Shown here in pieces: positions 2,864 through 22,930 of a DNA stretch of 54,250 bases. The stretch's first letter is position 1, and each line of letters opens with the position of its first letter. The stretch comes from a virus. The notes under the pieces are model-generated. The model had not been told where the DNA came from and made no database searches. It worked only from the letters and a program-made list of their open reading frames with translations. The stretch spans positions 1 through 54,250 of the IMG/VR virus record IMGVR_UViG_3300017917_002358; one strand, 5' to 3'. Made by a program: the position numbers and the translations under genes.

Positions 2864-3556
2864 TTATGCTGTCAAATTAGTTAATGTTTGAACTCTCACA
2901 GTATACTCGATTTGAATTAGTCTATTCAAAGATTTTTGAACAGGGCTGAAAATCACATGTGTTAACAACGGCAATCCTGCACCTAGTCCACTTTCTCCTT
3001 CTATATAACCAAATAGACCAAGTTCATCAAATACATAATCACCTGTTAAATTTTGACTATTGTCAAAAACTGCTTGCCCGCTGGGTTCACCATAGTCTAA
3101 TAAACAACTAACTACGATATCAGTATACTTTAGCCCCGGGGTATGATTTACCAACATTTTGTTGTTTATTGGGTCAGTGTTTGCAGAATTTGTGTCATCT
3201 ACCAGTTTCCAATAGGTAGGATTATAAAGATCTGCATTGGCTACGTTTGTATTTGTGGGCAGATAGGTAATAACCCCAGTTGGATCAACAGTAGTACCTC
3301 CGTTGCCAAAATGCATTTCGCTAATGAATTTGGTGCCTTTATTTGCGGCATTTTGTGCTAGACAAATTGAAAAATTTTCGTAGTGAATAGCATTTCTTTT
3401 GTTAACAAAGATTTGATTAGTTTCAGGATCCCAAATTTTAATATGACCCTGAAGGTGAATTCCGCCGCGCTCATCTGGCTGCTTTTGAGGTTGTTGTCTC
3501 ACGGTTGTATCCTGTTGTTTTTGATCCATATTCTTATTTATCGCTGATTTTGACAT
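2864..3556 (-). CDS. Virion structural protein of the tail module, function unknown
   Basis: 230 aa. The N-terminus is charged and Gln-rich (KQPQKQPDERGG near residue 24). A folded domain follows with IHLQGHIKIWDPETNQI, HYENFSICLAQNA, HFGNGGTTVDPTG and a C-terminal strand-rich part (LTHVIFSPVQKSLNRLIQIEYTVRV). I do not recognise a family with a proven function. It lies in the run of late tail genes between two fibre-type proteins, so a fibre-attachment or baseplate-peripheral role is plausible. ATG at 3556 gives the longest frame; an internal ATG at codon 10 is also possible. No transmembrane segment or signal peptide is visible. Confidence 0.6.
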   Translation of the reverse strand: MSKSAINKNMDQKQQDTTVRQQPQKQPDERGGIHLQGHIKIWDPETNQIFVNKRNAIHYENFSICLAQNAANKGTKFISEMHFGNGGTTVDPTGVITYLPTNTNVANADLYNPTYWKLVDDTNSANTDPINNKMLVNHTPGLKYTDIVVSCLLDYGEPSGQAVFDNSQNLTGDYVFDELGLFGYIEGESGLGAGLPLLTHVIFSPVQKSLNRLIQIEYTVRVQTLTNLTA

Positions 3557-3579
3557 ATTTTTTAATACCAGATAGCAAT

Positions 3580-4917
3580 TTAAACTCTGCCCACAACTAT
3601 TTCAATTGATCCCTCTGATCCATTAAAATTTTCCAATGCTTTACCAATGACTGCACCAACTTTGGGATTACTCTCGGCTCTTGCTCGACCATTCCCGGCT
3701 GATACTAGCATATCTCCTTTACTGATCGATCCCTGTACCTTACAGGGCACTCGACCAAGCAGAGCCACCATTAAAACGTTTTCACCAATAAGTTTATCAT
3801 TCATAGTAAATGCAGGAGCAGTAGACACTACCCCAGCAACACGAGTGCAATGATCTGTGTCACAAACAGACACCTCTGCTACTCCACCAAAGTGTAATAC
3901 AGTCCCCGGCTCATATGGTTGATCTGACAGGTATCGTTCTGCAATATCCGCATATTGAGCAGATGTTGATCTTGCATGAACGGTATTAAACGTTGCGCCC
4001 ACCGAGCCAATATTAGAAATATTATTGGCCAGCGGTAAAATATTCCCAACTAGTATAAAGGATCCGGTGCCCGGATTTAAAGTAAGATTTCCGTTGCTGT
4101 TTGACAAATAGGTTGCTACTTTGGCGTTACTATACGAGCCCACATTAGCCGCTGCAATTTGGCCGTCAACATAGGCCTTAATAATTGCATTTCCCTGTTC
4201 AACATAACCAATCATACCAACGTTGGCTGTAATCACCCCTGCATTGGCTGCAGAAATTTGACCATTGATATACGATTGCTGAATGGTATTGGCAAAATCA
4301 ACATAGCCCCGCATACCAACGTTAGCCGCGGCCACGCCCGCATTGGCTACTGTAATACGACTATCAACATAACCAATCATACCAACGTTGGCTGCGGTAA
4401 CGCCCGCATTGGCTGCAGAAATTTGTCCATCGACATATGCCTGCTGAATGGTATTGGCGAAATCAACATAGCCTCGCATGCCTAGATTAGCAGCAGTAAC
4501 CCCTGCGTTAGCCACTGTAATGCGACTATCAACATAGCCCCGCATGCCAACATTAGCAGCAGTAACCCCAACGTTGGCTGCTGTAATCTGCCCGTTTATA
4601 TAAGACTGCTGAATGGTGTTAGCAAAATCTACGTAGCCCTGCATGCCAACGTTAGCAGCAGTTACACCTGTATTAGCCGCAGAAATTTGACCGTCTACAT
4701 AACTTCGCATAACCACGTTTGATGTAGAAATAAGGAAATTTAAAGATGCAACATTAGATGCTAGGTCACTGTTTACATCTATATTAATATAATTTTTAAC
4801 TTGATCAATATTTGCTCTATAGGTAACATTGGCACTGGAAATGTTACTAACAACAGGTATTAATATATTTCCCCAAACTGTGGTTAAAGAATTTAGTTGA
4901 CTGATTTTAATTGTCAT
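3580..4917 (-). CDS. Repeat-rich tail fibre protein with conserved C-terminal domain
   Basis: 445 aa. Residues about 60-265 are near-identical repeats of an 11-13 residue unit: Y(V/I)(D/N)GQI(S/T/A)AAN occurs five times, GYVDFANTIQQ three times, GYVDSRITVANAG twice, with (T/A)AANVGM linkers. The C-terminal 125 residues differ. They begin with YADIAERYLSDQPYEPGTVL and include RVAGVVSTAPAFTMN and KGDMLVSAGNGRA. This type of domain ends many fibres of T4-like phages from aquatic bacteria and is reminiscent of intramolecular-chaperone or peptidase-G2-like ends, though no catalytic residue can be assigned. The start ATG overlaps the stop of the giant gene upstream (TAATG), implying translational coupling. 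Confidence 0.75.
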   Translation of the reverse strand: MTIKISQLNSLTTVWGNILIPVVSNISSANVTYRANIDQVKNYINIDVNSDLASNVASLNFLISTSNVVMRSYVDGQISAANTGVTAANVGMQGYVDFANTIQQSYINGQITAANVGVTAANVGMRGYVDSRITVANAGVTAANLGMRGYVDFANTIQQAYVDGQISAANAGVTAANVGMIGYVDSRITVANAGVAAANVGMRGYVDFANTIQQSYINGQISAANAGVITANVGMIGYVEQGNAIIKAYVDGQIAAANVGSYSNAKVATYLSNSNGNLTLNPGTGSFILVGNILPLANNISNIGSVGATFNTVHARSTSAQYADIAERYLSDQPYEPGTVLHFGGVAEVSVCDTDHCTRVAGVVSTAPAFTMNDKLIGENVLMVALLGRVPCKVQGSISKGDMLVSAGNGRARAESNPKVGAVIGKALENFNGSEGSIEIVVGRV

Positions 4918-7900
4918 TACAGACCCTCTGTGTAGATTTCATTGTCATCTTCTGTGGTTAACGTATTTATCGCGTCTTCGTCTGTGAGTGCTTGATTTGT
5001 CCCAGGCAACTGATCAATTGCACTGGGGCTTACACGTAAGAACAATGCAGCAGTTGTGGTTGAATTCTGCATGCCTTGACCATCCAACGGAGGAGGCATT
5101 GCACCACTATTATAAAAAACATTAGCGTATTGTATTAAATTACCATATGAAGTTCCAGGTATTATCTGTTCTGCACCAGCGTCTACTACTTGTGTAAATA
5201 CCGGTATTACTGGGTATGTGCTGGTTCCCTGTGTCCCTCGTCTGAGTTGAGTCAACACATCAACATCATCTAACATGCGTAGATTACCAAACTCTTTTAC
5301 AGGGCGAACACCTATCCCGGTTGAAGTTGTATCTCCTGTGCCCGTATCGCCAAAACTTATGGCTGTTCCATCTAGAGTAATAACATTTGCACTGTTCATT
5401 ACTACATTAGCGTTGGCGTAGATCGCAATAACTTGAGCATTAGCGTTGAAACCAACATTTGCGTACATGCCAACGTATAATCCGTTGGTATTGTTAACTT
5501 GAATTATATTGCCACCATAACTTGTTGCGGTTACTACTACATTAGCAGGTCTAACTAGTTCCCCGTTAATGCGTAGATTGCCGCCGCCTAGGTCAAATTG
5601 TGTGGGTTGAGTGAGATATTGAACAACTACTACGTTACTGTTAGTAACGTTTGCTGACACTATCACTGCATTAACATTGCTACCAATTTGAGTAACATAA
5701 GATCCAACTACGGCGGTTAAGTTGCCTAGTAAGTTAATTTGATACTGCAACAAAGTGTCAAACACTGTGCCAGATAGTGTGTTAGTACTGATATAGTTGT
5801 TACCAGCATAACTTAGAATTCTATCAGCAGCATATCCAACACCAGAAACCCACGGTGTAAGTTCTTGCCTATAATTTCTATAGAAGGTGATGCGCTCACC
5901 ATTAATAAAGACCACACCCGGACGTGCTCTAATTGGATCTGGAGGTGTAAACACCGCTGCATTGGCCACATGAATATACGAATCAGACTCTAACAAGGTG
6001 CGTGAAAGAGGCGATGAATTGGCCAGGCCTATTCTTAAATAGGAAGGTTCGTCCATCATATTTTCAAAAATTCTATAGCCCAGAGATATATTTGCAACTT
6101 CACCAACTGATACAGTAGTAAACACTCTCAGGTCTAGAGTATCAAACATGATACCAGGAACTAATTCTTCTGGGGCTCTACTATGATATGTGTCAATAAA
6201 TTGGCCGCCATCGGTTATAATATCTTCTGGCGCTGTTCCCAACGCCAAGTTAGCATAAAGACTGTACAGGGCCTGATCATATATACTGGTTGAGAGCAAT
6301 GCAATACCATCGGTACTGTATTGAACCGGATCAAACGGTGCTAGGTCATAACTGCGACCAAACAGTGGGGTTACTTTAAAATTAGTACTTCTGGTTACTG
6401 CATAAGGATAACTTACTCCAGGAATTAATTGTTCAAGACTGTCAAATCTACCATATACAGTGCTGTCTGTGGACAGAGTTACATTTGCGCTTAGAGAAAC
6501 TTTAGATGCCTTAATTGGTATACCACCAAAAGAAATATTAGCAAATGAAACATTTGCAGTAATAGTGTCGCTAAGATTAATACTATTAGTTGTGTAGTTT
6601 ATACTTAATATTCTTGCTTCAAATGGAACTCCCTGGCCTGATACATATTCACCTATGTTAAGACCGCTCATATTATTAATGTTTTCAATCGAAGAAATAC
6701 CGGTAGATAAATTACCCAAGAAATGTCCTCGACCGTTAACCATCACCGTTACATTGCCTACAATTTCAGTGATATATCCGGCTTCAACCCCATTGCCGTT
6801 TATATACATATTCTTAACCATGCTTTGGGAATTGAATACATAGATCGTATCCGTATTAACTGCAGAATTAACTAAAGTTATAGGAGTGTTGATAAGATCT
6901 ATAGCAGGCATCGCTGTTGTGGGTTCATAATAACCCACAATACGATCGTTAGCATTGTCAAAATAACTAGACGGACATAAAGTATAATTTTCAATAAGGA
7001 ATGCATTACCAGTGGTAACATTAGCATTAACAAAGTACGATGCTCGTATGGTTGCATTACCATCTTGATAGGTTCGAGTAATAATATCTCCGCTGATAAC
7101 TCTACCGTTTGCATCAAATTCAGTTTTAATATAAGTAGTATTGGCTGACCAAACTTTGACGTTACTGTTATATTTGATACGGTCAAACTTTAATTTACTA
7201 CTAAAATTACGCACCTGAGGATTGTACATAACCGCATATCCAGATGCCGGCGAATCTGAACTACCATTAATTGTTACTATCGGTGTAGAAGTATAACCAA
7301 TTCCGCTGTTGGTTACTCGAATATTACTGATTGCACCGGTGTTTCCATCGACAATAGCAACAGCAGTAGCCCCAGACCCAAAACCGTTAGAACTTGTAAT
7401 GGTCACCGTTGGTGGTATGCCGTAGTTAGCACCAGCATGTCCAATTTCAATTCTATATACCTGCAGAGATCTATGATCATACCACTGGTTATAAGGCCAG
7501 TTCTGCCAAGTATTTTGATCTTGCCTGGTATAAGGATTTTCTCCACTTGGACTACGGAATATAGGGTAGTTCAAACTAGTATCATAATAAGCCGGAAGAT
7601 CAAAGTCAGTGATATCCCCACCAAACATGTCGTTCCCAGTGTAGTTCAACAGATATTCTCTTATCTTAGTGCGATAAGGTTTAACTTCTTCAATATAGTT
7701 TTGATAATATGTTTGGTTATCTACTGTGTAACTTGGGAATTGACTTAATGTTCTAAGTTTGTGTGTAATTCCAATGAAACTTGATTTGAATAACCAATCT
7801 ACGTAATTTTGTTCGTTCAACAGATAATTTATCATTATAAAAAATAAATTACCAAATTCTCCCTGAAGTGTATTGGTGAATATGGTGCTGTACACCGTGC

Positions 7901-10900
7901 CAATCATATTTCTTATTTCAATGTTTGGATTTTGATCATATCGATTGCTGTCAAAATCCTGATTACCAAAACCTAATCCGGTGTCTGCATAATTGGCTAG
8001 ATTACTGTTAATTTGAATAGTACCCTCTTGAATTCCTATTACTTTGAGGGTGCCACCAACGTCAACTTCAACTAGTTGCCAGGTGTTGTTACCGGTGGCA
8101 TTTTGAATATAGATAATTGTACCCGGCGTTGCATTTAATTTTATAGCATCTGCGGTAGTTCCAACACTGAAATCTGGTCTGGTGCTAGCACTATATCCTT
8201 GAGCATACCAATCAATGTAATACCAATAGAGGCTGGCTTTGTAGGACTGTACACGGGAAACTTGCCAGGTCTTTTCGTTAGTCAATTGGTATAAAACCCA
8301 CAGCCCACTTTGTGTAGTGTCAAATCCAACCAGGACCAAATATCCTGGATCTAAATCAGTTGTGTCGATATAGTACAACTCTGCTTCAGTTTCTACTCTT
8401 AAATCATATTCGCCGGCTTTGAAATTTGGCTCCGGTTCAGCAGCATTTAATCCGCTGATATTAAATTGTTCTACTATGGGGTTGGCAGCAAATACCGAGT
8501 TTACGTATTGTATCAGTTCGTTCAGTGCCGCAAGTCTGTCAATAAACATGCTCTGTCTTGGTCTGATACTAATACCGTAACGATTCGCTGGACTTAGATT
8601 AGGGTCTGGCACCGGTGACCCGTGTCTGTCGATGCCGGACAAACTATCAACTAATTTGTTTACAATATTACTGGGAATAACTACATTTGGATTTCCCTTT
8701 TGTATTAGTTCGTATTCGCTGTGAATTAAATCTGTGTTAATAACCAATTGGTGATCCAAGTGCATGATTGTGTTATCTGCACTCAAATATTCAGCAATAT
8801 TATAGAATGCCATAGCATTACTACGAATTAACGCAGCATAAGGTATTCCTTGATTTTTAGGATTTGCAATGAAATCGGCAATAGAATTGGTAGGTAATTT
8901 TCGAGTTTCGTTGTTTGGGTCAACAGTGGTTTTATTAGTAACCCAATAGTAATAAACAGTGGTGATTATTCCGGTTGCTGCATCAACTTGAGTTTGTTCA
9001 ACATATGCGCTGTCATCTGGATAAAGAGGACTGCCATCATTAACGTTATCTACATATTGGCTTGGTAGATATATACTGCTGATCCATTCACAAATTTCTA
9101 TGCTAGATCCGGCAAACAATTCTCCCCAATGTAGACTACGATAAATTAAAGTGTCTTGTTCATAGTCGATGTATCGAACTTTACTTAGATTCCACCAAAC
9201 CTTGCCTAATTGAAAATCTCCCCAATACAGGTTCTGATTAATGTTCGCCGCTGGATTATTTCCTCGGTTGTAGACTGCTGGATCATATTCCGTTTTGAAT
9301 GATATTTCCTGCTCAGCCGGACCAAGTATACGTCCTTTTGCTGGGTCAATAAACTGTAAATTTTCTTTGATTAAATTGGTTTGGCCGTCGTATAAGAATC
9401 CACGCGAAATGCTGTCGATATCAACTCTAGGTTCTTGATAACGAATCAACTTCCAACCTCGCGTGTTTGAAGGATTGCTAAACACGTAAATTGCGCCGTT
9501 GCCAGATGCTGTATCAGTAGTTAATGCTGATACAGTAACGTATCGATTTTCGATATCTATTGCATAACCAAATTGGTCACCAGAAACTAGATTATCTGGA
9601 ATTAACTGCTGAGCAAAAGCATATCGTCCAGGATGTTCAACTTCGTTACGCGGGTCATCATACAATTCATAGATGTACACTGATCCGCTGCCAACTATGT
9701 CATCTGTAAATATTGTTGTATCATCATCAAAAACAGTGCCGTTAACGGTGCTATCAATATCAAAGTTGGTTAATTCTCTGGTTGTTCCCCGAGCACTACC
9801 AATTACCAACATATAAGCATTACTGGCTAATTTAACTTTATTACCAAAGTATTCCCCAGGCAACCCAAAAGGATTGATAATAATCTGCATAAATGCAAAA
9901 ACAATAGTCCCCGCTTCACTAAGAATACCAGAACTTCCAATACTAGTGTTACCACTCAAAATACGCAACTGATCTTTGGCAACTTTCACATCTGAATCGA
10001 TTTGGAGATATCCGTTTTGATTTGATGCTGTTACTCCTAAAATACCCGACTCGTTGATATCTTGAACAAAATTGTCTAGGTTAGTTGATTGAACATATAC
10101 GTTGGGTGATAACCAAGAACCATTAATAGCAATATTTGCTCCTGTGACAAAAACATTACTATTTTGATATTTAGAAGTTTTGATTCTGTAAGTAACCGTA
10201 GCACTTTCCAATACCTGCACATTAGCACCGGTGCTTGGTTGTGTAATCCAATCTCCTGCATTGACATTTACTACGCCAGAAAGACTAAGGCTAACACGAA
10301 CTTCAAAATTGTTAAGTCTGATTGTATCTATTGGTTTGAATGTTGGATTTTTAACATATCCGGTATCAGTACCGTATAAACGTCCACGGTTGTGGAATTT
10401 CCATACCGCTCCCGAATTATATTGGGTACCATTATCATAATAGGGTGCACCTATATATATGGCACAATTATTTGAACAGATTGTGAGACTAGTACCAAAT
10501 GCCGCATTTGCCTGTATTGCTGCCAGGCCGCCTTCCAAACTATCAACACCGATAATTCTTTCTAATAAATTGAATTGATTAACTTCAACGTATATTACCT
10601 GTCCTATAGCAGGGGGATTTACAAAACGTACAGTATTTGTTCCAACAATCTGATAGTCGTCGACTTCTATCCCGTCGATGGTTACTTTATAAACATTAGA
10701 AATAGGATTTTCAGTTTGGTAATCTTGACCACCGGTTCCTGGTGCAGCGTCTGTTACGGTATTAAATGCTTCTATGACTCTGTCAAATACATACACTGCA
10801 CCTGCACCAGGTTGCAGAACGCCATCAAGGTCTTGAACCGTATCCCCAGGTGCGCCCACTGCTAGTTGTGCACCATCGAAACTACTTGAAAGAGCATACC

Positions 10901-13900
10901 CGTATTGAGCCCAGGAATTTCCAGTTGGTATAGGTAATTTAGTTAGCAGAGAGTAATATGGTTGTTGTGTGATGGTTAAGGTAGTTTGTTGCAGATTGGC
11001 TGCAAAATTAACAGTTGATCCAGACAACGTATACTCAAGTCCTGGTATAAAAGTCTTTGTAGGATCACTGATTACAAGGCTATTGGCATCGTTATCTGTG
11101 GGAGTAAAGTTAAGAGTAACTGAACTAACTGCTGCATTACTTACATTTCCAATTGGGAACACACTGGTTACAGCAAGATTGCCCGAACTTAATATACTGA
11201 TATTAGCAAGAATGGTTGTATTGCCTGATGTTACATTCCCATCGCTGCCAACTGTAGCAGTAACAAAATTAGTTAAACTATCTACAACAATTTCTCTATT
11301 AGATACCACCGATATTACACTTGTACGTGCACCAGTATTAGCCTGAATGATAACATCGGTTGGATTTACTGAAATATTTCCCGATAGATACAGCGTTGTC
11401 TTGTTTTTAATTGATACAGTTTGTTGTTGGAAAGGTATAAATCGTTTTAATCCATACGCATAAACTGTGTTATTTCCCGGAGCCCCTACATATAACCACT
11501 CACCGTCTCGATTAAATGTAAGGCTATATCCAAATTGATCTCCTGCAACATTACCTTGAAGAATCTGAGCAGGGACAAATATCTGAGAATTTATTGCCTT
11601 GTGGTATACATACACTAACCCATTGCCGCTAAAACTATTAGGAGCGCCGACAGCCATTCTAACAGTTTCTGCACCGTCGGTTGCAAGATCAACGGTATGT
11701 CCAAAAGATCTAACATTGGCATTTACTGCAGGCAATGCATACCCTTCTTTATAAAGTCCTTGAAAATCTTTTAACCATGTTGTGACCCGACCTACATTGC
11801 TGCTGTACCCGGGAGAACCTGCAACGATAATAAGCCCATCGCTGGACATCTTAACCGATGTACCAAATTGATCAATATTTGAATACTGGGTGGAATTTTT
11901 AATAATTTCTTGATCCAACGACCATGGATGTTGTTTTTCGTAAACCTTCCATGTACCGCTAGGTTGCGTTCCAAACGGTTGTCCTTGCACTTCCGTTGTT
12001 TCTGCATCATCGTCAATCCAAATCTTATCCCCAACTTTCCAACCATTGGGGGGATTTGTCAGACCGTAGACACGAGAGTCCTCCATATAACGGAAACGCA
12101 TACTGTCTAAACGAAGCAAAATACCATCGCCGTCTTTGCTGATTAAATCAGTCACATCACCAGAATATTTCACTAATAATCTGTTTGAATCAACGATCTG
12201 AAAAACCTGATAGAACCCATCAAATTCTGTTATAAAGTCTTTGACTAAAAACACGTTGTTAATTTCTAATTCATGAGGAGTTTTAGTTGTAAATGTGATA
12301 AATCCATTAAGACTGTTGGTTACTTGAACAATATGATTATTAGTTTCGGTAACTCGATATACATTCCATTGTTGACTAAAATCTTTGGCTACCCAGATTA
12401 GGTATCCCGACCCCATGTCTGCAATTTTGCCATCTAAGTCTGAATAATTGGCTAAATCAAAAATTTGTGTGTCAACGTCATCAATGTTGACATAACCTGC
12501 AACAGGTATATCATTATCGTAATTACTGATAGATGTTCTGTTGAGAGCAACATTTGCACTGTATTCGCCGTAAGATTTATACAGTTGTCTAGAATTAAAA
12601 ATATCTATTCCGTTGGCTAGATTAATATCTGCATCGTCTACAAATCTAGCCACGCTAGGATTAATACCAAAGGTTTTTTCGTCTAGAGGTATTTCAACAA
12701 ACGGATTGCTTACTAGAGCACCGTACTCCCCTACACGAACTGCCCATTCTTCATACATGCTAATAGAACTAGTTAAATTATTAATATTCGCACTAGTGAA
12801 TGCGTCAACTGCATTTTTACTGCCCTTTTGTGCAATATAGCCTTTGTAAAATTCAATTTGAGTAGTTTCAGTTAGCCCCAGGTCTGCCATATACTGGCGT
12901 TTTTTAAATCCGATCAGTGCATGACTGTATGCCACTTGATCCTTGTTTCTAATTTTTGCATAACTGTCATAGTATGATTGGCTTTCTACGGCTATGGTAC
13001 TGAAGTTAGGCAATAGTCCTTTTTGAATTTGATCTGCTGATAGAATCTGCCAGTTTTGCCATTGGAAGTTTGGATTTGCAGGAGTGTCTTTTAAAGCCGT
13101 ATAATATTGTTTTTTATACTGTACAAGATCTCCCTTAAGATAGTCTTGTCCCTGATTCCATTCATCCACTTGACCCGAGTTGTAGACAAACCCCGCGGGG
13201 CTTAGACTTCCGTCCCAATCGGCGGTGCGTTGTCCTATAACCTTAAGTCGGTATTGTCGATTACCAGATTCAGGTTGGTAGATCACATCATTAAAAACAG
13301 TTACATTGTCAAAAATTAACGTGTGTTCATACTGAACTAAATTAATTTCTACATATCCAATAACACTTGCTGCGTCATCAATAGTAAGTTTAAAATCTGA
13401 TGGGGTTCTATAGACTGTGTACTTGTTGTTCTTGATGAGGTTAAAGTTTTGATCTAACACTCTGCTTCCGTACTGACTGTCTGAAATCCCTTGAGTTACA
13501 GCGCCAATTGAGATTGCATTTAGGGTATTTGATACTGGGCTTACAACCAGTATACTACCAGGCTTCCACCCCTGCTGAGACCAATAGAGAAACTCTCGAA
13601 CACTTAATTTCCAATCTTTGACCTGATTCAGTTGTGGGTCAATATCGTCAAAGGTAAAACCCTGAGCAATTAGCCAGCGTTCGTAACTGACAAGGAAATC
13701 TGATACCTGCTGTTGAGTGTTAAATTCGTATCCATACGGTACATTGATTTTTAAATTTTGATAATCATTATAAACTGCAGCACTGCTGTTTAATACTGTA
13801 ATTTTTGAAGAGTTATTGTTTACTACACTGGGTATTATGGTGAAGAAACTATTAAAAAGATCGTAACCTCGTACACTATAACCATTGGTTGTTTTTTCAA

Positions 13901-16900
13901 TTATAACAGCACTATAGGTTATCTTATCAACAACTACAGGATTGTCATTTAAATAAATCTTATAGTTTTCGTTGGGTATTAGAATACTGTTGTTAGTGCT
14001 AGTTGGGCTAACTTGTTCTGCTAGAATTTCTAGATAATTTTGATCAGTAAAACCACTTACCTTGTAGGTTAGATTTACCTGAAAATTCTTTAATAGATTA
14101 ATCAAATAATTTGATGGATTAATTCCCTGATTTATCAGATAATCAGCAACCCAATTTAGATAACCCGCTCCTCTGTATATGCTACCAGCATCAGTATTAC
14201 CATTGAAATTTATAGCCGACTGTGTTAGGTGACCATTGGTACTGGTTAGAAGATACTGTTGTGAATCTGCTGTCTTAATAGGATTTAGACTAGTATAGGT
14301 ATAATTATCAATTAAACTACCAAAGTATTCTGCTGGTCTAGCCAGAGCCAGAGCCTGCTGAACAGCAAACGGAAAATCACTACTAGTACGCCAGGCAAAT
14401 TCCACAGGGCCCTGTTGACCCACGCTCCACGCACTGGCTGTTTTTTTACTGTTAAATACCTTGCAAAGTATTTGTGCAGGGGGAATTAAATTACCGTTTT
14501 CATCGACTGGAATATATTTGCTCAACCCAGGACGAGCATAGGTTAAGTCAACGCCCTGACGATAACCGTAACGAATATATCCGCTTTCCAAATCTTGCCA
14601 TAGCAGTGAGTTGCCGCCGGTATAAGGTTCAGGACCATAAAATCCTTCCCACCAATCTGGTTTAGCAGAAAAACCCAGACATTCCCACGGTGTCAGATGA
14701 GGACGATATGTGTCATAAAAATATTGGTAGCAGGCGCGCCAACTTCCCGGCAGTAAAGAACCATCAACCTTGTCTTGACTTGAACTATAGTTCCACGTAA
14801 ATGGATCGTTGGCTAGGAACGTTTCGTTTGTTGAATAATCTAATTTATTGTTTCCAACCCAATTTAAGAAACTTGTACTTACGATTTGATTAAACTCTAA
14901 TAGAGAATAATCACCTTCTCTGAATCTTCCAGGAACCAATGAGAAAATATCAGAGAAGGTATTAGTTTCTGCTAGTTTAATGTTATTATAGATACGCTTT
15001 TCTAATTCAAGTAAAAATTCATCTCGGTAGTCATTAAATGTTGGAGTGATGCTGCCGTCGTGACCTCGAATAACATAAGTTGGAGTTCTATAGGTGTTAT
15101 CATAGAATCTTTGGGGCACAAATGCAGGCCAAAGTCCAAGTTTACTGGGAGTTTCTGGTATAAAATTAGCATCAGTGTTGCTGTATTCAACTATCTTTAG
15201 TATGTCCCCAACTTCCAGTGATATCTTAAAATCAACACTTGGTGTTTCTCTATTAAATGTATAATCTTGGTCTTTTATAAGTTGTTGATCATTTAAATAA
15301 ATTAATACTGCCTTGTTGCTCAATTGGCGATCGTTAAATATTTCAGTAATTTCATAGTTAGTTTTTAGTGGATCAAAAACTTCAAATCCGTCAATATTGC
15401 CAATTTGTCCAACAGTATTCTTTAAGGGACCATATGGTACCATGTCTGAATAATACCATGGGAAGGTTTTATTTTTAACTTGATTAATTTTGTTTAATAT
15501 CAGATCTACACTGCTGATTGGATCATTAGCATTGATGCCTGGTAAACTCAGCGACAGTTCTAAAAATTTATTTTTGAATTTGGTATATTCTTGCTGTGCA
15601 AATCTAATAGAATTAATAAAGTTTGCTTGCTTGTCAATTAAAAATAAACTGGCATAAGGTACTGGGGCACTGTGTTGTAAAATAGTTCCCCCTTGTTGTT
15701 TGATATCAATATCACGCAGGTTACTCTGTGCTAGAATATTGCCTTCAACAATAGTACTATTTTGAGACAACGCCACTAAGTGGTTTCGAAGTTGTCCCAG
15801 AGTCAATGTTGTAATATCTATATTTTGAGCATTTAGATCTAGATTTTGTGGGATTTGGAAGAATCCCATTTTGCTGATTTCTGAACTGTATACCAATATA
15901 TCAATTTGATCGTTGACAGTTAACTGAGAATTAATGGTAATTGTTTTGTTTGAAATAGACCACTCGGTGGGAGATAGATAATTAAAGTTTTGAAAAATCT
16001 TAAGATAAGGGATAGTTCTCTCACCGGTATTTGGAGTAACATCTATGGTAAAGACATTACTAGTACCGTCGTAAACAAAACTTATAAGTTGATACTGGTG
16101 ACTGGGTTCAGCCACAGTCAACCACATGTTTTTTGGAACCAGCGTACTTGTATCTAAGAATTTTTGTAAATATCCTAGATCAATTTTTTGTGTAATTATA
16201 CTATCCCCAACATCATTTAGATAAGAGAATGTATCGCTATTAAAGAAATTTTGGAAATTAATATCACCTTGGGTGGCAAAATTTTTATAACTTAAATAGA
16301 AGTTATAGACAGCAGCACCGGTAGAATCATAAATTGGAGCAACTGGTCCTCTCGACAACACAGGATCTGCAACACCGCTGGTAGCACGCAAATATCCAAA
16401 TATTTGCGTTCCTTTGAATGTGCTGCGAGAATAGTTACTAAAACTCTTGTCAGTTTTATCAAAAACGTCAAATAATGGCGGTTGTTGAAGATATGATTTT
16501 TCTTGTCCTAGGTGCCATATGACTCCATCAAACCAAAAAACACCGCCTCTATAGAGACCAGATTTAATCACAATATTCTCGTTGGCCTTGACATCCCCGT
16601 CTGCAGCCAAAGAAAGTTCTATATAATATGGACCGGTTGGTTGTCCAAACGTATCGACATCATATTGAACTAACAATAGATCATAAACTTTATTTGCTAC
16701 CAAAGGATCTTTGTCATGAGCAAATATTATTCTAAGACCGTCTGGATAAACAGGATTACCATCTGAATCAATAATTTCTACGCCGCAGATTGTAGTAAAG
16801 GTTTTTCCTTGGAATTCTTCAAAAGCATAATGAATTGTGGTATCTAAAATATCTATGGGTTTGAGTCCTTTGCGCCCATAATTAAACAGTTGATAATCGG

Positions 16901-19070
16901 CTTCAAATTGAACGATAGGACGTTGTGCTCTGGCGCCGTTGTCAAAGTTTGCCTGAGTACTGTTATAGGTTGCAGTTGCAGTTATTACATCAGCGTGGAA
17001 CCAGCGATTGGTTCTAGACCAACCATTACGATCTTTACTGGCACGATTGATGGTAATATAATCTGGAAGATATTCACCAGGATAATTAGTAGCAATTTCG
17101 TCAAGGTATCTTTCTGGAGTTACTAACTCGTCAACTGGAACCAATTGAATTCCACCACCGATGTCGCCCACCTGTTCTACATAAAATTGTCGATTTTGAT
17201 ACTCAACTGGGGTAACATCATCCCCAAACTGTACTTTAAGACCCGAAGTAAACTCAACACCATTTGGGCTAGTGTAGTTTTGTTGTCCTATGATATCTGT
17301 TTCAACATCGATGCTCCACCCTACATACTCAACAATCTTAACAGGAGTATAGATGTCTCCTCTGATGCCATCTTGTATCCATAATTGATCTAAAGTTGCA
17401 GTAATCAATGGGGTTTGTTTGAAGAACCCATCATAGTCTTTGTAGTATTCTTTATTGGCATTTTCTATACCGTATTTGACATAGACTTTTTCGTCCGCGG
17501 CTACAGCCTGTTGATGAACTAGTCTAAGAAGTGGATCACCAAAAGACACATTTAAAACTTTACTGCCTATGGGGATAACTGTATAACTACCAGTAACTGA
17601 CATCACTCCTGTTGCACTGGTTAATGCAAACTCGCTTCCACCAGCAGTGGCGCTGATGGTCATGGTATTTGGTCCTAGTATTTCTTTAACATAATAGGTA
17701 GTGCCAGCAACAATATCTCCTATAGCAGTGCCGGCAAAGACCACAGGCATGTCTACTTCAAATCCAACGGTCGAACTCACTGTTAAAATATTAGTACCGC
17801 TGGTTGTAGTTGATAATGAAGTTACTGCATCTGCTTGGCGAACAGTAAATTCTCTTCCATCCCAAGTGATAGTGGGTACCCAAACATAATCCTGTCCAAC
17901 TTCTGCATCATACAAAAGACCGGTGTCAATCGAACGAACAACAGCGCCATTGTCTATAGTATCTACAGTTAAACGGGTTCCAGCAGTAAGATTGCCGGTT
18001 AATGTTTGATCCAACTTGACTTTTTGGCCAAGATCTACGTATACTATTTTCCATACACCAAATCTTTGAGACTCTGGTATGACTTCGCCAGCATTGTATC
18101 CGGGTATGATATCCCCGTCTTTATCGTAGACCACAGGATTAGTCCACGCAGTTTCACCGAGATTATTCCAAGCATCAGTTACAAGGAAAACAGTATATTT
18201 CCCGTTTAACTGCCCAGTAATGCCAGCATACTGTGGATATTTTGCAAGAAATTGACTTAGAGTTTTATTTGCAAGTTCACTATATGGTATAGGCGTAGCA
18301 TAATCTACGTTAAACACCGTTGCCATATTTATAAAACGATCTTGTGCATTGTTTTGGGGAACACGGAAGGTAATGGTGCCTTGATCAGTTCCGTTGTTGG
18401 TTACTCCTAAAATCGAGCGAGAACTTATGGTAGGCGTAGCATTGATTGAACCGTCTGTGCCTATTTCAGTCTGGATCCAGAAGGGAGCGCCAGGTTGGTC
18501 TACTACAAATTCGTAAACACCGCCGCGTGCTAGAATAATACTATTATCTGTTACTCCGTTATTTTTAAAAATATATCGTCCGTTGGTAGTGTCTCTGGTT
18601 ACTGTATAAGTAATTCTCAGATCCAATCCGCTGGTTGTTACTTCTACCGGATCTGGTCCATTAGGTAACCAGTAGTACTGACCAAAATTTATCAACTTGT
18701 CAAAACTTATTTTTGGATCAAAACTATAGTATTCTTGCTCAAACAGGCGACTGTGGTCTTTGATATTACCACCGTAATAGGCAATTTGATCTAAAAGGTC
18801 TTGGTAGTCAGCAAAAAAGGTTGTTTGTCTTTGGTCATTTTGAACCACTACACTAGGTTCAAGTTGATAATTCTGGCGAGTTTTGTTTTTTTCAATGACG
18901 TAACTATCACCCACAGTGAATGTTGGGGCAAACTTACGACCAATGTATCCATATAAAGTTTCTAAATTAGGATCAGTGGTCAATTGATCCATTGTGGCCG
19001 CTAGAAACTTTTTATTGGTGTCTGTTTGAAATATTGCAGGTAAAAAATTATATGTTTTTCTTGTCGCCAT
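4917..19070 (-). CDS. Giant 4717-aa tail/baseplate structural protein with FG-GAP propeller
   Basis: One uninterrupted frame of 4717 codons, roughly 0.5 MDa. The start ATG (19070) lies 18 bases after the gp6 stop. Residues 1-150 form a charged, aromatic-rich domain (NFLPAIFQTDTNKKFL, FDKLINFGQYYWLPNG). Residues about 175-270 look cupredoxin-like (GGVYEFVVDQPGAPFWIQT, GTDQGTITFRVPQ) without obvious copper ligands. Residues about 2390-3200 hold seven FG-GAP-type repeats near 2400, 2455, 2509, 2721, 2857, 3075 and 3165 (for example QFGYSLTFNRDGEWLYVGAPG). The last 1000 residues are Asn/Val/Thr-rich and share modules with the 48133-49086 protein. In T4 the genes after gp6 encode gp7-gp12; this protein may do part of their work at the baseplate rim. 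That role is inference; structural status is likely from position and composition. Confidence 0.8.
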   Translation of the reverse strand: MATRKTYNFLPAIFQTDTNKKFLAATMDQLTTDPNLETLYGYIGRKFAPTFTVGDSYVIEKNKTRQNYQLEPSVVVQNDQRQTTFFADYQDLLDQIAYYGGNIKDHSRLFEQEYYSFDPKISFDKLINFGQYYWLPNGPDPVEVTTSGLDLRITYTVTRDTTNGRYIFKNNGVTDNSIILARGGVYEFVVDQPGAPFWIQTEIGTDGSINATPTISSRSILGVTNNGTDQGTITFRVPQNNAQDRFINMATVFNVDYATPIPYSELANKTLSQFLAKYPQYAGITGQLNGKYTVFLVTDAWNNLGETAWTNPVVYDKDGDIIPGYNAGEVIPESQRFGVWKIVYVDLGQKVKLDQTLTGNLTAGTRLTVDTIDNGAVVRSIDTGLLYDAEVGQDYVWVPTITWDGREFTVRQADAVTSLSTTTSGTNILTVSSTVGFEVDMPVVFAGTAIGDIVAGTTYYVKEILGPNTMTISATAGGSEFALTSATGVMSVTGSYTVIPIGSKVLNVSFGDPLLRLVHQQAVAADEKVYVKYGIENANKEYYKDYDGFFKQTPLITATLDQLWIQDGIRGDIYTPVKIVEYVGWSIDVETDIIGQQNYTSPNGVEFTSGLKVQFGDDVTPVEYQNRQFYVEQVGDIGGGIQLVPVDELVTPERYLDEIATNYPGEYLPDYITINRASKDRNGWSRTNRWFHADVITATATYNSTQANFDNGARAQRPIVQFEADYQLFNYGRKGLKPIDILDTTIHYAFEEFQGKTFTTICGVEIIDSDGNPVYPDGLRIIFAHDKDPLVANKVYDLLLVQYDVDTFGQPTGPYYIELSLAADGDVKANENIVIKSGLYRGGVFWFDGVIWHLGQEKSYLQQPPLFDVFDKTDKSFSNYSRSTFKGTQIFGYLRATSGVADPVLSRGPVAPIYDSTGAAVYNFYLSYKNFATQGDINFQNFFNSDTFSYLNDVGDSIITQKIDLGYLQKFLDTSTLVPKNMWLTVAEPSHQYQLISFVYDGTSNVFTIDVTPNTGERTIPYLKIFQNFNYLSPTEWSISNKTITINSQLTVNDQIDILVYSSEISKMGFFQIPQNLDLNAQNIDITTLTLGQLRNHLVALSQNSTIVEGNILAQSNLRDIDIKQQGGTILQHSAPVPYASLFLIDKQANFINSIRFAQQEYTKFKNKFLELSLSLPGINANDPISSVDLILNKINQVKNKTFPWYYSDMVPYGPLKNTVGQIGNIDGFEVFDPLKTNYEITEIFNDRQLSNKAVLIYLNDQQLIKDQDYTFNRETPSVDFKISLEVGDILKIVEYSNTDANFIPETPSKLGLWPAFVPQRFYDNTYRTPTYVIRGHDGSITPTFNDYRDEFLLELEKRIYNNIKLAETNTFSDIFSLVPGRFREGDYSLLEFNQIVSTSFLNWVGNNKLDYSTNETFLANDPFTWNYSSSQDKVDGSLLPGSWRACYQYFYDTYRPHLTPWECLGFSAKPDWWEGFYGPEPYTGGNSLLWQDLESGYIRYGYRQGVDLTYARPGLSKYIPVDENGNLIPPAQILCKVFNSKKTASAWSVGQQGPVEFAWRTSSDFPFAVQQALALARPAEYFGSLIDNYTYTSLNPIKTADSQQYLLTSTNGHLTQSAINFNGNTDAGSIYRGAGYLNWVADYLINQGINPSNYLINLLKNFQVNLTYKVSGFTDQNYLEILAEQVSPTSTNNSILIPNENYKIYLNDNPVVVDKITYSAVIIEKTTNGYSVRGYDLFNSFFTIIPSVVNNNSSKITVLNSSAAVYNDYQNLKINVPYGYEFNTQQQVSDFLVSYERWLIAQGFTFDDIDPQLNQVKDWKLSVREFLYWSQQGWKPGSILVVSPVSNTLNAISIGAVTQGISDSQYGSRVLDQNFNLIKNNKYTVYRTPSDFKLTIDDAASVIGYVEINLVQYEHTLIFDNVTVFNDVIYQPESGNRQYRLKVIGQRTADWDGSLSPAGFVYNSGQVDEWNQGQDYLKGDLVQYKKQYYTALKDTPANPNFQWQNWQILSADQIQKGLLPNFSTIAVESQSYYDSYAKIRNKDQVAYSHALIGFKKRQYMADLGLTETTQIEFYKGYIAQKGSKNAVDAFTSANINNLTSSISMYEEWAVRVGEYGALVSNPFVEIPLDEKTFGINPSVARFVDDADINLANGIDIFNSRQLYKSYGEYSANVALNRTSISNYDNDIPVAGYVNIDDVDTQIFDLANYSDLDGKIADMGSGYLIWVAKDFSQQWNVYRVTETNNHIVQVTNSLNGFITFTTKTPHELEINNVFLVKDFITEFDGFYQVFQIVDSNRLLVKYSGDVTDLISKDGDGILLRLDSMRFRYMEDSRVYGLTNPPNGWKVGDKIWIDDDAETTEVQGQPFGTQPSGTWKVYEKQHPWSLDQEIIKNSTQYSNIDQFGTSVKMSSDGLIIVAGSPGYSSNVGRVTTWLKDFQGLYKEGYALPAVNANVRSFGHTVDLATDGAETVRMAVGAPNSFSGNGLVYVYHKAINSQIFVPAQILQGNVAGDQFGYSLTFNRDGEWLYVGAPGNNTVYAYGLKRFIPFQQQTVSIKNKTTLYLSGNISVNPTDVIIQANTGARTSVISVVSNREIVVDSLTNFVTATVGSDGNVTSGNTTILANISILSSGNLAVTSVFPIGNVSNAAVSSVTLNFTPTDNDANSLVISDPTKTFIPGLEYTLSGSTVNFAANLQQTTLTITQQPYYSLLTKLPIPTGNSWAQYGYALSSSFDGAQLAVGAPGDTVQDLDGVLQPGAGAVYVFDRVIEAFNTVTDAAPGTGGQDYQTENPISNVYKVTIDGIEVDDYQIVGTNTVRFVNPPAIGQVIYVEVNQFNLLERIIGVDSLEGGLAAIQANAAFGTSLTICSNNCAIYIGAPYYDNGTQYNSGAVWKFHNRGRLYGTDTGYVKNPTFKPIDTIRLNNFEVRVSLSLSGVVNVNAGDWITQPSTGANVQVLESATVTYRIKTSKYQNSNVFVTGANIAINGSWLSPNVYVQSTNLDNFVQDINESGILGVTASNQNGYLQIDSDVKVAKDQLRILSGNTSIGSSGILSEAGTIVFAFMQIIINPFGLPGEYFGNKVKLASNAYMLVIGSARGTTRELTNFDIDSTVNGTVFDDDTTIFTDDIVGSGSVYIYELYDDPRNEVEHPGRYAFAQQLIPDNLVSGDQFGYAIDIENRYVTVSALTTDTASGNGAIYVFSNPSNTRGWKLIRYQEPRVDIDSISRGFLYDGQTNLIKENLQFIDPAKGRILGPAEQEISFKTEYDPAVYNRGNNPAANINQNLYWGDFQLGKVWWNLSKVRYIDYEQDTLIYRSLHWGELFAGSSIEICEWISSIYLPSQYVDNVNDGSPLYPDDSAYVEQTQVDAATGIITTVYYYWVTNKTTVDPNNETRKLPTNSIADFIANPKNQGIPYAALIRSNAMAFYNIAEYLSADNTIMHLDHQLVINTDLIHSEYELIQKGNPNVVIPSNIVNKLVDSLSGIDRHGSPVPDPNLSPANRYGISIRPRQSMFIDRLAALNELIQYVNSVFAANPIVEQFNISGLNAAEPEPNFKAGEYDLRVETEAELYYIDTTDLDPGYLVLVGFDTTQSGLWVLYQLTNEKTWQVSRVQSYKASLYWYYIDWYAQGYSASTRPDFSVGTTADAIKLNATPGTIIYIQNATGNNTWQLVEVDVGGTLKVIGIQEGTIQINSNLANYADTGLGFGNQDFDSNRYDQNPNIEIRNMIGTVYSTIFTNTLQGEFGNLFFIMINYLLNEQNYVDWLFKSSFIGITHKLRTLSQFPSYTVDNQTYYQNYIEEVKPYRTKIREYLLNYTGNDMFGGDITDFDLPAYYDTSLNYPIFRSPSGENPYTRQDQNTWQNWPYNQWYDHRSLQVYRIEIGHAGANYGIPPTVTITSSNGFGSGATAVAIVDGNTGAISNIRVTNSGIGYTSTPIVTINGSSDSPASGYAVMYNPQVRNFSSKLKFDRIKYNSNVKVWSANTTYIKTEFDANGRVISGDIITRTYQDGNATIRASYFVNANVTTGNAFLIENYTLCPSSYFDNANDRIVGYYEPTTAMPAIDLINTPITLVNSAVNTDTIYVFNSQSMVKNMYINGNGVEAGYITEIVGNVTVMVNGRGHFLGNLSTGISSIENINNMSGLNIGEYVSGQGVPFEARILSINYTTNSINLSDTITANVSFANISFGGIPIKASKVSLSANVTLSTDSTVYGRFDSLEQLIPGVSYPYAVTRSTNFKVTPLFGRSYDLAPFDPVQYSTDGIALLSTSIYDQALYSLYANLALGTAPEDIITDGGQFIDTYHSRAPEELVPGIMFDTLDLRVFTTVSVGEVANISLGYRIFENMMDEPSYLRIGLANSSPLSRTLLESDSYIHVANAAVFTPPDPIRARPGVVFINGERITFYRNYRQELTPWVSGVGYAADRILSYAGNNYISTNTLSGTVFDTLLQYQINLLGNLTAVVGSYVTQIGSNVNAVIVSANVTNSNVVVVQYLTQPTQFDLGGGNLRINGELVRPANVVVTATSYGGNIIQVNNTNGLYVGMYANVGFNANAQVIAIYANANVVMNSANVITLDGTAISFGDTGTGDTTSTGIGVRPVKEFGNLRMLDDVDVLTQLRRGTQGTSTYPVIPVFTQVVDAGAEQIIPGTSYGNLIQYANVFYNSGAMPPPLDGQGMQNSTTTAALFLRVSPSAIDQLPGTNQALTDEDAINTLTTEDDNEIYTEGL

Positions 19071-19088: not shown

Positions 19089-22000
19089 TTATGATACAGT
19101 TAAACTACCAATTTGATTAATTTGTGCCGCAGTAATTGCAGAAATAATCTGCACGTTGTCTACGGTTGCTGCACTGGTAATGATTTCGTTAATATTGCAA
19201 TTAACCTGCATTAAACTACCAAATACTTCAGACTCGTTAACTGGTACTATGATAATACTTGAAATATTTGGACTTAGTTGCACATGCAGATATGCTGCTA
19301 ATTCACTGAAATAAAATGTTTCTCCAAAATCCCAATTGGCAATGTCAAAATATTGATTAATTGCAGCAATTACACTGGTTTTGACTTCGTTATCGCTGAT
19401 AACCACGTTTGGGTTTTTAACTACTTTAAAAGTTGCCTGCAGTGTAGGATCAGCCTTAGAGCCAAATAATGGCTTAAATTTTGCTGGATTATATATGATG
19501 GTATCGCTGATGGCTTTGTAATTATCCAGTGTACTGTAGTCCGTTTGAAGTTGTTCTCCAGTGGGCAAAGTTGGCTCTGGTACTATTCCCGACGTATCTT
19601 GAACCCACACTAAGTAATCAGCGGTGTACTGTTCAGTCAGCATGTAGAGATCAATGATATTATTTGGACTTGGGTCAATTCGACGATTGTTTGGACTGTT
19701 GTGACGATATTGGAAATATAGATCTTGACGACCAATTTTAGCAATATAATTTGTGACTTTGGTTAAGGTATATTTTGAATTTACCACAGACAATTGGTAA
19801 AACTCATCAGTTGTGGTCAAATAAAACAATTGACCATTTGGAAATAGAGTTTTAGCCTGCTCAAGGTCACGAAGAGTGTCATAACTACTGTTGACTGCGG
19901 CGTTGTCCACAGGAACCTCTACCGTAAATTTATCGTATCCAGATGTAGATTTAAAATAAATGTATTTGTTTTTGGTATTAACGTTTGGTGCCACAAGAAG
20001 ATCAAAAAGTTCTGGATTGTCAGGTATTCCGTCATTGTCTGAATCAGAGAACGTGATTTGTATCTTATTAATATTAACATACCCATCAACTTCTACAATG
20101 GCTTTGTTAATGTACCAAACATAGTCTAGGGCCAGTGGCTGACTGCTATCAGGAGTCGTATTGATTTTTAAAACTTTAATTTGATCATTGACAGTAAGAC
20201 CAGTTTTGGCATCATAGATTTTAGTTAGATCTTCATAGTAGAAATTGGTTTCAAGTACACTGCCAAACACATAGTTTAATCCTCGGTAATAGACTGTATA
20301 TGTCTTACCGATGGTTTGGAATGCAATAAACCAACTGCTGTCTTGTCCTTGACCGCTGGTATCTCCAGCATAGGTTAGGCTAAAATCAGAAGTTAAGTTT
20401 AAATTCTCAGGGGTGATTATTTTCCAACTGCCCGATGCTGAATCGTAACGTAATCCAAAATTAGCATAGGCCTGTATATAACTAATCATACTGTTGACTA
20501 AACTATTTGAAAGATCAACATTAAACACTGCAAAAACTTTATCCCCAATAATGGTCTGATTTGGTGGTAATATTTGATTGATAGTTACCGGACCTGACCC
20601 GTTGGCTAAATTACCCTGTCCGTTATTGGTACCATCTCCAACCACCAACTCTATGGCTGCATACACGTAATATTTGTCGCCGGGCTGATTTGGTGTTCCT
20701 GTTTTTACATAATTTCTGCTGTCAAAATAGTTTCCCGGGCCGGCACTAAAACGCACAATTGCACCCTGTTGAATATAACTGGCCGGCCCTGTCACTGCAG
20801 ATCCTATCTGCAGAATTTTTCCATCAACATCAACAAAATAACCAGTGCAACCATTGGCTATAGTTGTGCTAGTATGCCAATAAACGTTTAACAGTTCAAT
20901 CAAAGGATAGTCAGCATAAAAAAGTTGTTTTGTTTCAACTGCCTGTATGATAGGCACCACACGATCATAGATCACTCGGTAGATATTATTCAGGGTGTTA
21001 TAATCAAAATTGAAAGAGTTAGAAAAACTATCTCTATACAATATGCCATCTTGCGAAAATATATTGGTGCTTGAATATTTTCCTGTAACATCAATGACAT
21101 CTAGGTAACGGCTAATACCCGAACTGGTACGGTTAACTGCTTTGACTTTGATAATATTACTGAACAATGTATAGGGCAGAATGTTATAATCTTCCCCTGT
21201 GACCATTCGATTTTGGGTATAAAATTGTTGTGGTGCTTTGAGTTTTATATCGTCCAGACTTTCTCTCGTGCTGGCATTGGCTATGGTATACTGCAGACTA
21301 GCCGTAACAATAAGATTTTCTATTCGTCCGGCCTGACTAACATAAGGTATTGAAAATATCAATCCCTGCATTTCATCGGGGACAATTTTATATTGAAGAC
21401 CATTTGAAGTTCTATAATAAAGTCGATAACGTCCCACTGGCATGTTTGCAAAAGCACCGTCACCAAAGACCAAATCAATTTGGTCCCCAGCACGAGTATG
21501 CACTTGATAGATGTTTCTATTTAGAGTATTGTTATAGACAACGTTGGTACTGGCCACTGCAGGTACCTGAGACCATAGAGTGTCTAGGTTCCCGTTGCTG
21601 TCAACACTATATAACCACAAATCTGAATTATTAATATTATTGGTATTGATGCTGTACACACGATTTGGAATGGATTCAGCAAAATCAAAATCTATAGACT
21701 GCAGTGTGCCTTGCTTAAAATAAAAGAAAAAGCCTGTGTTAGGGCTACCGTTGCCTAACCCATCGTTTTTGTATAAAAAGTTAAAAGGTGCGTTTAGATA
21801 TGGATTGCTTTCATATATGTAGTTTTCATCCAACATCGTAGCACTTACTGCTTCAAATGACATCTGAGTACCCGATACCACCGACTGAAATGGCAGCACG
21901 GATATAGTATTGGGTATATAATTTATTTGATATTGCTCTGTTTGTATACCGTTGATAATTTTGCTAGCAGACGGCTTACCAATACCTTGATTGCTCTGCA

Positions 22001-22490
22001 GACACAGATTAAGCACTAGAGTAAACTGTTCTAACCAGTTGCTGTTTGCTGAATCGGCCCAATTTATTACTAGTCCGCTTAGATTGATACCGTTGCTATC
22101 AGAAACAGTTTCAGTAGTACTGACGCTGTCAAACTTTAAGAAGCCGCGGCTATTGATATTACGCTTTGGACTATAACTGATCAATCGAGCCAGTTTAAGA
22201 ATACTGTCTCGGCGCTGTGCAGTGTCAATGAAGTTTTCGCGAGCATTTAGGTCTCCTCGGAAAGATAATGCTTGCCCCAAAAAGGCAATCATATCTATTA
22301 AAGCAACAAATTCGCTGCTTTCGATATAATCATTAAAATCTTCAGGATAATACAACTGAAGATAACTGATCATTGAGGCTCGAAGAGTTTCGTAGTCGTA
22401 ACTTTGGAAGTCAGCGTTGCGGAAACTTTGATAAAGTTTAGTCCAATCCTCTGCGACTAGTAAACTTGTCTGTCTGGTAGTTGTGGCCAT
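19089..22490 (-). CDS. gp6: Baseplate wedge protein gp6-like
   Basis: 1133 aa. The N-terminus (DWTKLYQSFRNADFQSYDY, YLQLYYPEDFNDYIESSEFV, IDMIAFLGQALSFRGDLNAREN, RRDSILKLARLISY) matches the conserved start of T4-like gp6, the wedge protein that forms the continuous ring around the baseplate hub and holds gp25 and gp53. T4 gp6 is about 660 aa, so this version is much longer; the extra length lies mostly in the beta-rich middle and C-terminal half. It follows gp25 as in other T4-like baseplate clusters. A GATAAATA octamer lies 22 bases upstream of the ATG. Confidence 0.9.
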   Translation of the reverse strand: MATTTRQTSLLVAEDWTKLYQSFRNADFQSYDYETLRASMISYLQLYYPEDFNDYIESSEFVALIDMIAFLGQALSFRGDLNARENFIDTAQRRDSILKLARLISYSPKRNINSRGFLKFDSVSTTETVSDSNGINLSGLVINWADSANSNWLEQFTLVLNLCLQSNQGIGKPSASKIINGIQTEQYQINYIPNTISVLPFQSVVSGTQMSFEAVSATMLDENYIYESNPYLNAPFNFLYKNDGLGNGSPNTGFFFYFKQGTLQSIDFDFAESIPNRVYSINTNNINNSDLWLYSVDSNGNLDTLWSQVPAVASTNVVYNNTLNRNIYQVHTRAGDQIDLVFGDGAFANMPVGRYRLYYRTSNGLQYKIVPDEMQGLIFSIPYVSQAGRIENLIVTASLQYTIANASTRESLDDIKLKAPQQFYTQNRMVTGEDYNILPYTLFSNIIKVKAVNRTSSGISRYLDVIDVTGKYSSTNIFSQDGILYRDSFSNSFNFDYNTLNNIYRVIYDRVVPIIQAVETKQLFYADYPLIELLNVYWHTSTTIANGCTGYFVDVDGKILQIGSAVTGPASYIQQGAIVRFSAGPGNYFDSRNYVKTGTPNQPGDKYYVYAAIELVVGDGTNNGQGNLANGSGPVTINQILPPNQTIIGDKVFAVFNVDLSNSLVNSMISYIQAYANFGLRYDSASGSWKIITPENLNLTSDFSLTYAGDTSGQGQDSSWFIAFQTIGKTYTVYYRGLNYVFGSVLETNFYYEDLTKIYDAKTGLTVNDQIKVLKINTTPDSSQPLALDYVWYINKAIVEVDGYVNINKIQITFSDSDNDGIPDNPELFDLLVAPNVNTKNKYIYFKSTSGYDKFTVEVPVDNAAVNSSYDTLRDLEQAKTLFPNGQLFYLTTTDEFYQLSVVNSKYTLTKVTNYIAKIGRQDLYFQYRHNSPNNRRIDPSPNNIIDLYMLTEQYTADYLVWVQDTSGIVPEPTLPTGEQLQTDYSTLDNYKAISDTIIYNPAKFKPLFGSKADPTLQATFKVVKNPNVVISDNEVKTSVIAAINQYFDIANWDFGETFYFSELAAYLHVQLSPNISSIIIVPVNESEVFGSLMQVNCNINEIITSAATVDNVQIISAITAAQINQIGSLTVS

Positions 22491-22539: not shown

Positions 22540-22917
22540 TTATTGCACAGACAAATTGTTATTTTGCCCGTTAAAGTTTAGACGCATGGTACCTGATTGA
22601 TTTGTAGGAACGTATCTCAGTTGTAGTTCAATGAGAATGCCCTGTTCGTATTCTGTGACCAGTACATTTTCAAAACTAACTCTAGGATCGTATTTGGCAA
22701 TGGCTTTGATATCTTCTATTATGGCTGCTTTTAGGTCTTCAGTAAAGGGTTCAAAAAGAGCATTCCATATAATAGTGCCAAAGTTTGGGCGCATGAGTTT
22801 TTCGCCTTTACGAATGTTGAAATGATTAAGAATATCTTGTTTAATCAGATCAAAACCAGTAAGACGAAAGTTAGTGGTTCTATTTTGTGTGCTAAAACCG
22901 CGGTAAATGGTTGTCAT
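22540..22917 (-). CDS. gp25: Baseplate wedge protein gp25-like
   Basis: 125 aa, close to T4 gp25 (132 aa). It contains the family pattern: a short N-terminal strand, a DLIKQDILNHFNIRKGEKLMRPNFG region (the RKGE..M.P.FG signature), IIWNALFEPFTEDLKAAI and a C-terminal strand pair. gp25 of contractile injection systems links wedge to hub and sheath initiation; related proteins exist in type VI secretion and R-type pyocins. It lies between gp5 and gp6. The ATG at 22917 is 8 bases from the gp5 stop. Confidence 0.92.
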   Translation of the reverse strand: MTTIYRGFSTQNRTTNFRLTGFDLIKQDILNHFNIRKGEKLMRPNFGTIIWNALFEPFTEDLKAAIIEDIKAIAKYDPRVSFENVLVTEYEQGILIELQLRYVPTNQSGTMRLNFNGQNNNLSVQ

Positions 22918-22922: not shown

Positions 22923-22930
22923 TATTTATC
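22923..22930 (-). promoter_or_regulatory. Possible late promoter overlapping the gp5 stop codon
   Basis: The minus strand reads GGATAAATAT across the gp5 stop (GGA TAA). Only five bases separate the octamer from the gp25 ATG, so any transcript would be nearly leaderless, and the match may simply come from the stop codon. Confidence 0.25.

Follow-up and report, generated by a model that had tools for sequence, protein, structure and literature searches.

Among the closest described systems are beta-propellers found on phage baseplates. The C-terminal domain of gp131 from the jumbo phage phiKZ (PDB 4GBF) is a seven-bladed propeller located at the baseplate periphery and proposed to bind the receptor, and the baseplate of the Staphylococcus phage phi11 bears a beta-propeller within its receptor-binding protein Gp45 (PMC4901313). 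The propeller reported below can be likened, by description, to that of gp131, as both are seven-bladed and assigned to jumbo-phage baseplates, but the latter is the C-terminal domain of another protein, which gave no match in profile searches and is absent among the fold-search matches listed. Gp45 differs further, being a trimeric receptor-binding protein whose five-bladed propeller is not set in a wedge protein. The FG-GAP fold itself is already known in phages: gp054 of cyanophage S-TIM5, gp320 ('hemagglutinin') of Atu_ph07 and XYS97266 and XYS97267 of Phosso share with our propeller FG-GAP_2 repeats devoid of DxDxDG loops. As they occur in other jumbo phages and in a cyanophage, this fold is in phage use; these proteins are, however, encoded by separate genes outside the baseplate giant, and a phmmer comparison of our propeller with them gave no match. 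What is new here is an FG-GAP propeller embedded in a giant protein linked to the baseplate wedge; no paper on FG-GAP repeats in phage baseplates was found in a literature search of incomplete coverage.

The window, i.e. the whole stretch of DNA analysed (a 54,250-base IMG/VR virus record), carries on its minus strand an ORF of 4717 codons (4917..19070) that opens with ATG and encodes a 524 kDa product (computed mass 523.6 kDa), in agreement with the half-megadalton protein announced in a preliminary description of this DNA. Its parts and the neighbouring genes located below are all on the minus strand. Directly upstream lies the gene of a gp6-like baseplate wedge subunit (19089..22490; phrog_10646, E 3e-301), preceded by a phrog_43 gene (22540..22917; E 9e-19), whose product we take to be a gp25-like wedge subunit, and by the gene of a gp5-like baseplate hub/tail lysozyme (22926..25040; Phage_base_V). 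On the other side, the end of the giant gene overlaps the start codon of a gene encoding a 445-aa protein with a C-terminal phrog_6427/22593 part (3580..4917), beyond which lies the gene of a 230-aa protein (2864..3556; phrog_11259). In PA5oct, Phosso, SCTP-2 and Vibrio 2.275, the giant gene is followed by one for a protein of about 200 aa, whose likeness to the 230-aa protein is one of size.

Residues 1-2349 of the giant protein match phrog_10938 (profile search, 1137 bits), a virion protein conserved in jumbo phages of the RaK2/PA5oct/Atu_ph07 type, and place it in this family. The same residues match 59 phage records, including RaK2, PA5oct, Atu_ph07, CBB and SCTP-2, and the segment located C-terminal to the propeller matches the same phages, so that these isolates share the core that flanks the propeller at either end and, where the genomes were inspected and annotated, the position of the gene after a gp6-like wedge gene. 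The record of the PA5oct homologue carries an ESI-MS/MS note. The baseplate linkage proposed previously is thus supported both by the gene order and by the phrog_10938 homology to the PA5oct protein. The conserved N-terminal part (residues 1-330; 18081..19070), of which residues 1-135 share 45% identity with the PA5oct homologue, gave an AF2 model too poor (pLDDT 53.5) for a gp7 fold search. In T4, gp7 is encoded directly after gp6, and the order of the gp6-, gp25- and gp5-like genes in the window is as around T4 gp6/gp7, but T4 gp7 has 1032 aa as against 4717 aa. Profile comparisons did not reveal homology to gp7: hhalign of nine regions with an alignment of eight gp7 sequences gave probabilities below 2%. 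The conserved core lies before (residues 1300-2372; 11955..15173) and after (residues 3207-3830; 7581..9452) the propeller; a PDB profile search with these two halves returned no match except one at chance level (E 0.64).

The preliminary description had noticed seven FG-GAP repeats in this protein, with long insertions between blades 3-4, 4-5 and 5-6. A strict (F/Y)G scan puts the repeats within a few residues of the positions then given, at residues 2402, 2456, 2513, 2723, 2858, 3075 and 3167. The spacings (54, 57, 210, 135, 217 and 92) agree with the three long insertions and reveal a smaller one after blade 6. The pattern originally used has five strict matches in the protein; 2000 shuffled versions averaged 0.07 matches and never gave more than 2. 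Pfam FG-GAP_2 (PF14312) recognises four stretches (E 7.5e-11; 42.5 bits for a gathering cut-off of 23), which assigns the protein to this family. The Gly of FG is retained in all seven repeats of 37/37 nonredundant full-length relatives, and F or Y precedes it in nearly all of them; the spacings vary among these sequences chiefly behind three of the blades (116-293 aa after blade 3, 115-609 aa after blade 4 and 145-405 aa after blade 5). A distant and almost insertion-free relative, L198, has exactly seven FG repeats within about 405 aa. The integrin FG-GAP family PF01839 has no match in the window at E<=0.001 and none listed for the protein at E<=10, a direct tblastn search of 50,697 phage records with the propeller found no match, and canonical DxDxDGxxD calcium loops are absent from the window propeller, the full loop motif being found in 0/37 sequences. 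The term 'integrin-type' used by the preliminary description therefore holds for the fold, which is recovered by AF2 superposition, and not for integrin binding chemistry, as the canonical calcium loops of integrins are absent.

The AF2 model of residues 2330-3260 (built from 36 sequences; pLDDT 78.4, pTM 0.79) is a confident closed ring. With VIA-align 2, its first match is integrin alpha-M (9t3y_A; Z 39.4, 355 residues, 2.5 A, 19% identity), and integrin alpha heads fill all 50 matches listed. The superposed part covers model residues 52-879, i.e. residues 2381-3208 of the giant protein. In the model, the FG segment forms strand 1 of each blade and the segment ending in GAP forms strand 2; as model residue 52 aligns with residue 1 of the integrin chain, the N-terminal strand should close blade 7. 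The profile of the propeller region also finds integrin alpha-6 (7ceb) from sequence alone (E 8.3e-7). The top PDB row of Foldseek by E-value, SF3B, was discounted because of its poor TM-score, and the integrin rows of the aligner were preferred. As modelled, the region is thus a closed seven-bladed integrin-type propeller without calcium loops, as had been supposed from the repeats. The opposite view, of a degenerate remnant or a pattern due to chance that forms no closed propeller, can draw on the fact that just four stretches pass Pfam by themselves, but it meets a confident model that superposes on integrins with a Z of 39.4, seven Gly invariant in 37 sequences and the compact form of L198. 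At the level of prediction, this view is refuted, and the chance of its being right is very slight.

The module spans residues 2381-3206 (9453..11930), its boundaries being drawn from natural empty sites (see below). Blade 1 (11721..11873) and blade 2 (11550..11711) are followed by strands 1-3 of blade 3 (11436..11540), blade 4 (10755..10910; YG in place of FG) and blade 5 (10377..10505). Each of these three blades carries an insert in its strand 3-4 loop, made of residues 2556-2699 (10974..11405), 2773-2824 (10599..10754) and 2899-3055 (9906..10376), respectively. Strands 1-2 of blade 6 (9786..9854) precede a strand 2-3 loop with a short variable insert (residues 3096-3126; 9693..9785), and blade 7 (9453..9584) completes the ring. 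The inserts of blades 3 and 5 are homologous to each other (i-E 7.8e-9), and copies recur elsewhere within the giant proteins of relatives. From phage to phage, the strand 3-4 modules of blades 3-5 differ in length and presence, and the blade-3 insert has a mean indel fraction of 0.41 between relatives. In the integrin topology, the strand 3-4 loops all lie on one face. The three large modules should therefore cluster on one side, and, judging from the loop type, would extend from a single face of the disc. Apart from the seven blades and the topology (Z 39.4 at 2.5 A), this arrangement recalls the integrin alpha heads in another respect, as large domains are set in propeller loops in both cases (compare the alpha-I domain of some integrins). 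The alpha-I domain sits between blades 2 and 3, unlike the inserts of the window propeller, which occupy the strand 3-4 loops of blades 3-5, and the calcium loops and the PF01839 match are lacking in the latter. As side observations, the blade inserts form one family of small beta modules, with several copies per protein in relatives (L066, L079 and L080). An invariant Cys pair (2865/2869) forms a CSNNC motif in the strand 1-2 turn of blade 5 (about 10464-10478, minus strand); the whole giant protein has only 8 Cys, and this pair could be a metal site or a disulfide.

Isolated phages have homologues without the propeller. In BLAST comparisons, the core blocks flank a slot bracketed by residues 1704 and 1790 in RaK2, where it is an 88-residue linker, 1645 and 1818 in Vibrio 2.275, 1974 and 2297 in PA5oct, 1961 and 2336 in SCTP-2, and 1674 and 3200 in Phosso. 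The slot of isolates holds either a linker of 88-151 aa or unrelated sequence of up to about 1530 aa. The PA5oct, Vibrio 2.275, Phosso and SCTP-2 homologues have no FG-GAP match in Pfam. When RaK2 and Atu_ph07 are added to these four, none of the six isolates has a match to the propeller profile in its slot, and in this they differ from the window. Two environmental relatives nested in the propeller clade, L201 and L228, lack exactly the propeller: their empty site reads GWAVYTYN-GSTWTRTRQQ, versus GWGVYSFN[propeller, seven FG repeats]SWTLTRQQ in the sister L198. The equivalents in the window are the hairpin strands GTWKVYEK (about residues 2373-2380), at the end of the first core half, and RGWKLIRY (from about 3204), the first strand of the second half; the propeller therefore spans about 2381-3206. 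From this exact loss, it also follows that its edges sit in a WxVYxK/WxxxR hairpin. On sequence grounds, the propeller is thus a removable module set into the turn of one beta-hairpin of the body. As L201, L228 and all isolates examined do without it at this site, a baseplate can work without such a module; an essential scaffold role is further disfavoured by the core of L201 and L228, which lost exactly the propeller without visible collapse.

Among 221 giant ORFs, a set that includes near-duplicate and re-fetched contigs, the propeller was found by profile in 183 and by motif in 13 more, the others having short linkers, other sequence such as GSGY-type repeats, or being incomplete. A tree of 113 thinned cores requires the propeller state to change twice, and well supported branches force both changes. 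One falls on the branch separating the group of the isolates and, the tree being unrooted, could represent either a gain or a loss. The other concerns L201 and L228 and, given their nested position, is best read as a loss. A core-centred scan confirmed at least 591 relatives, and the propeller profile matches in all of the best 80 of these. Carrier contigs reach 329 and 354 kb, and these viruses are therefore jumbo phages. In a different subclade (L163, L157-L161), the slot holds GSGYTxxPTVxI-type repeats and no propeller; it therefore accepts different domains. Seven other relatives (L193, L210, L214, L217, L218, L227 and L229) encode giant proteins of 5.4-6.4 thousand residues, exceeding that of the window, with diverged propellers in the identical slot.

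Taken as a whole, these data lead us to view the propeller as an exchangeable plug-in adhesion module of the baseplate periphery that probably grips the host surface, a reading to which we give a probability of roughly 0.55. Its operation can be pictured as follows. The giant protein, whose body is common to other jumbo phages, would be made next to the gp6-like wedge protein as part of the baseplate. Inserted in a hairpin turn, as homology, the empty sites and the AF2 model show, the propeller would be displayed as a side domain, leaving the course of the body unchanged. The small beta modules that blades 3, 4 and 5 carry between strands 3 and 4 would project from one face of the disc and, together with blades 1-2, would make up a variable surface contacting glycans or proteins of the host envelope. 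In near relatives, the conserved blades 5-6 might dock onto the baseplate or a partner.

This picture takes into account the uneven conservation of the module. In near relatives, blades 5-6 have an identity of 0.81-0.85 (0.79-0.81 when pairs were graded by divergence), above that of the core (0.65), whereas blades 1, 2 and 7 are below it (0.45-0.57; 0.45-0.50 for blades 1-2). Indel fractions reach 0.35-0.41 in the two large inserts, versus 0.01 for the core. The excess conservation of blades 5-6 is gone in distant pairs, and a universal docking sector formed by these blades was rejected, as their high conservation holds for near relatives only. Blades 1-2 rank among the least conserved blades at each divergence tested. 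The variable inserts and the fast evolution of blades 1-2 point to an exposed position more than to a fixed interface, even if relaxed constraint can also cause fast evolution.

Propellers are common protein-docking discs. The module could be a structural platform that binds a protein of the phage itself, such as a tail fibre or outer wedge subunit, rather than the host, its variable parts co-varying with the fibre. The giant gene sits among baseplate genes and has fibre-like genes downstream, and of all parts measured in near relatives, blades 5-6 show the highest conservation, two features that fit such a platform; the three large variable insert modules and the fast blades 1-2 rather suggest exposure, and we regard this alternative as possible but clearly the less probable of the two. 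Some seven-bladed propellers are hydrolases. An enzyme or carbohydrate-processing domain acting on the cell surface can be envisaged as well, and the five-bladed receptor-binding propeller of phi11 resembles a cyclotransferase (PMC4901313). The nearest folds among the matches listed are, however, all integrin alpha heads, which are non-enzymes, FG-GAP_2 is the sole Pfam match and no catalytic motif was recognised, making this function improbable.

The giant protein would be a concrete instance of an integrin-fold head placed within the body of the machine by which a virus injects its genome, instead of on a separate fibre. The slot marks a site at which domains of adhesion size are added, swapped and removed without breaking a baseplate protein, and it suggests where host recognition should be sought in these jumbo phages, a large group known from metagenomes only. 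More tentatively, a conserved wedge protein of the baseplate may offer this uncultured group a socket with exchangeable contents, the integrin-type propeller and its pluggable loop modules serving as a main receptor-binding device that replaces tail fibres or acts alongside them. With one copy per wedge, a baseplate would bear as many as six of these half-megadalton proteins.

Some minor observations concern other genes. In the Sinorhizobium phage Phosso (L152), two adjacent giant ORFs encoding 'hypothetical protein' (2339-11827 and 11901-22979; 3162 and 3692 aa) contain about 24 and 41 FG motifs and are probably strings of several propellers; the smaller FG-GAP proteins of this phage are encoded about 25 kb away. 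In the window, three genes have no PHROG match (50598-54086, encoding 1162 aa downstream of the head genes, 30544-31299 and 32360-33532). A radical-SAM gene (35819-36940) adjoins SbcC/SbcD-like and RusA-like genes, and Atu_ph07 and Phosso, too, have radical-SAM genes close to their giant gene.
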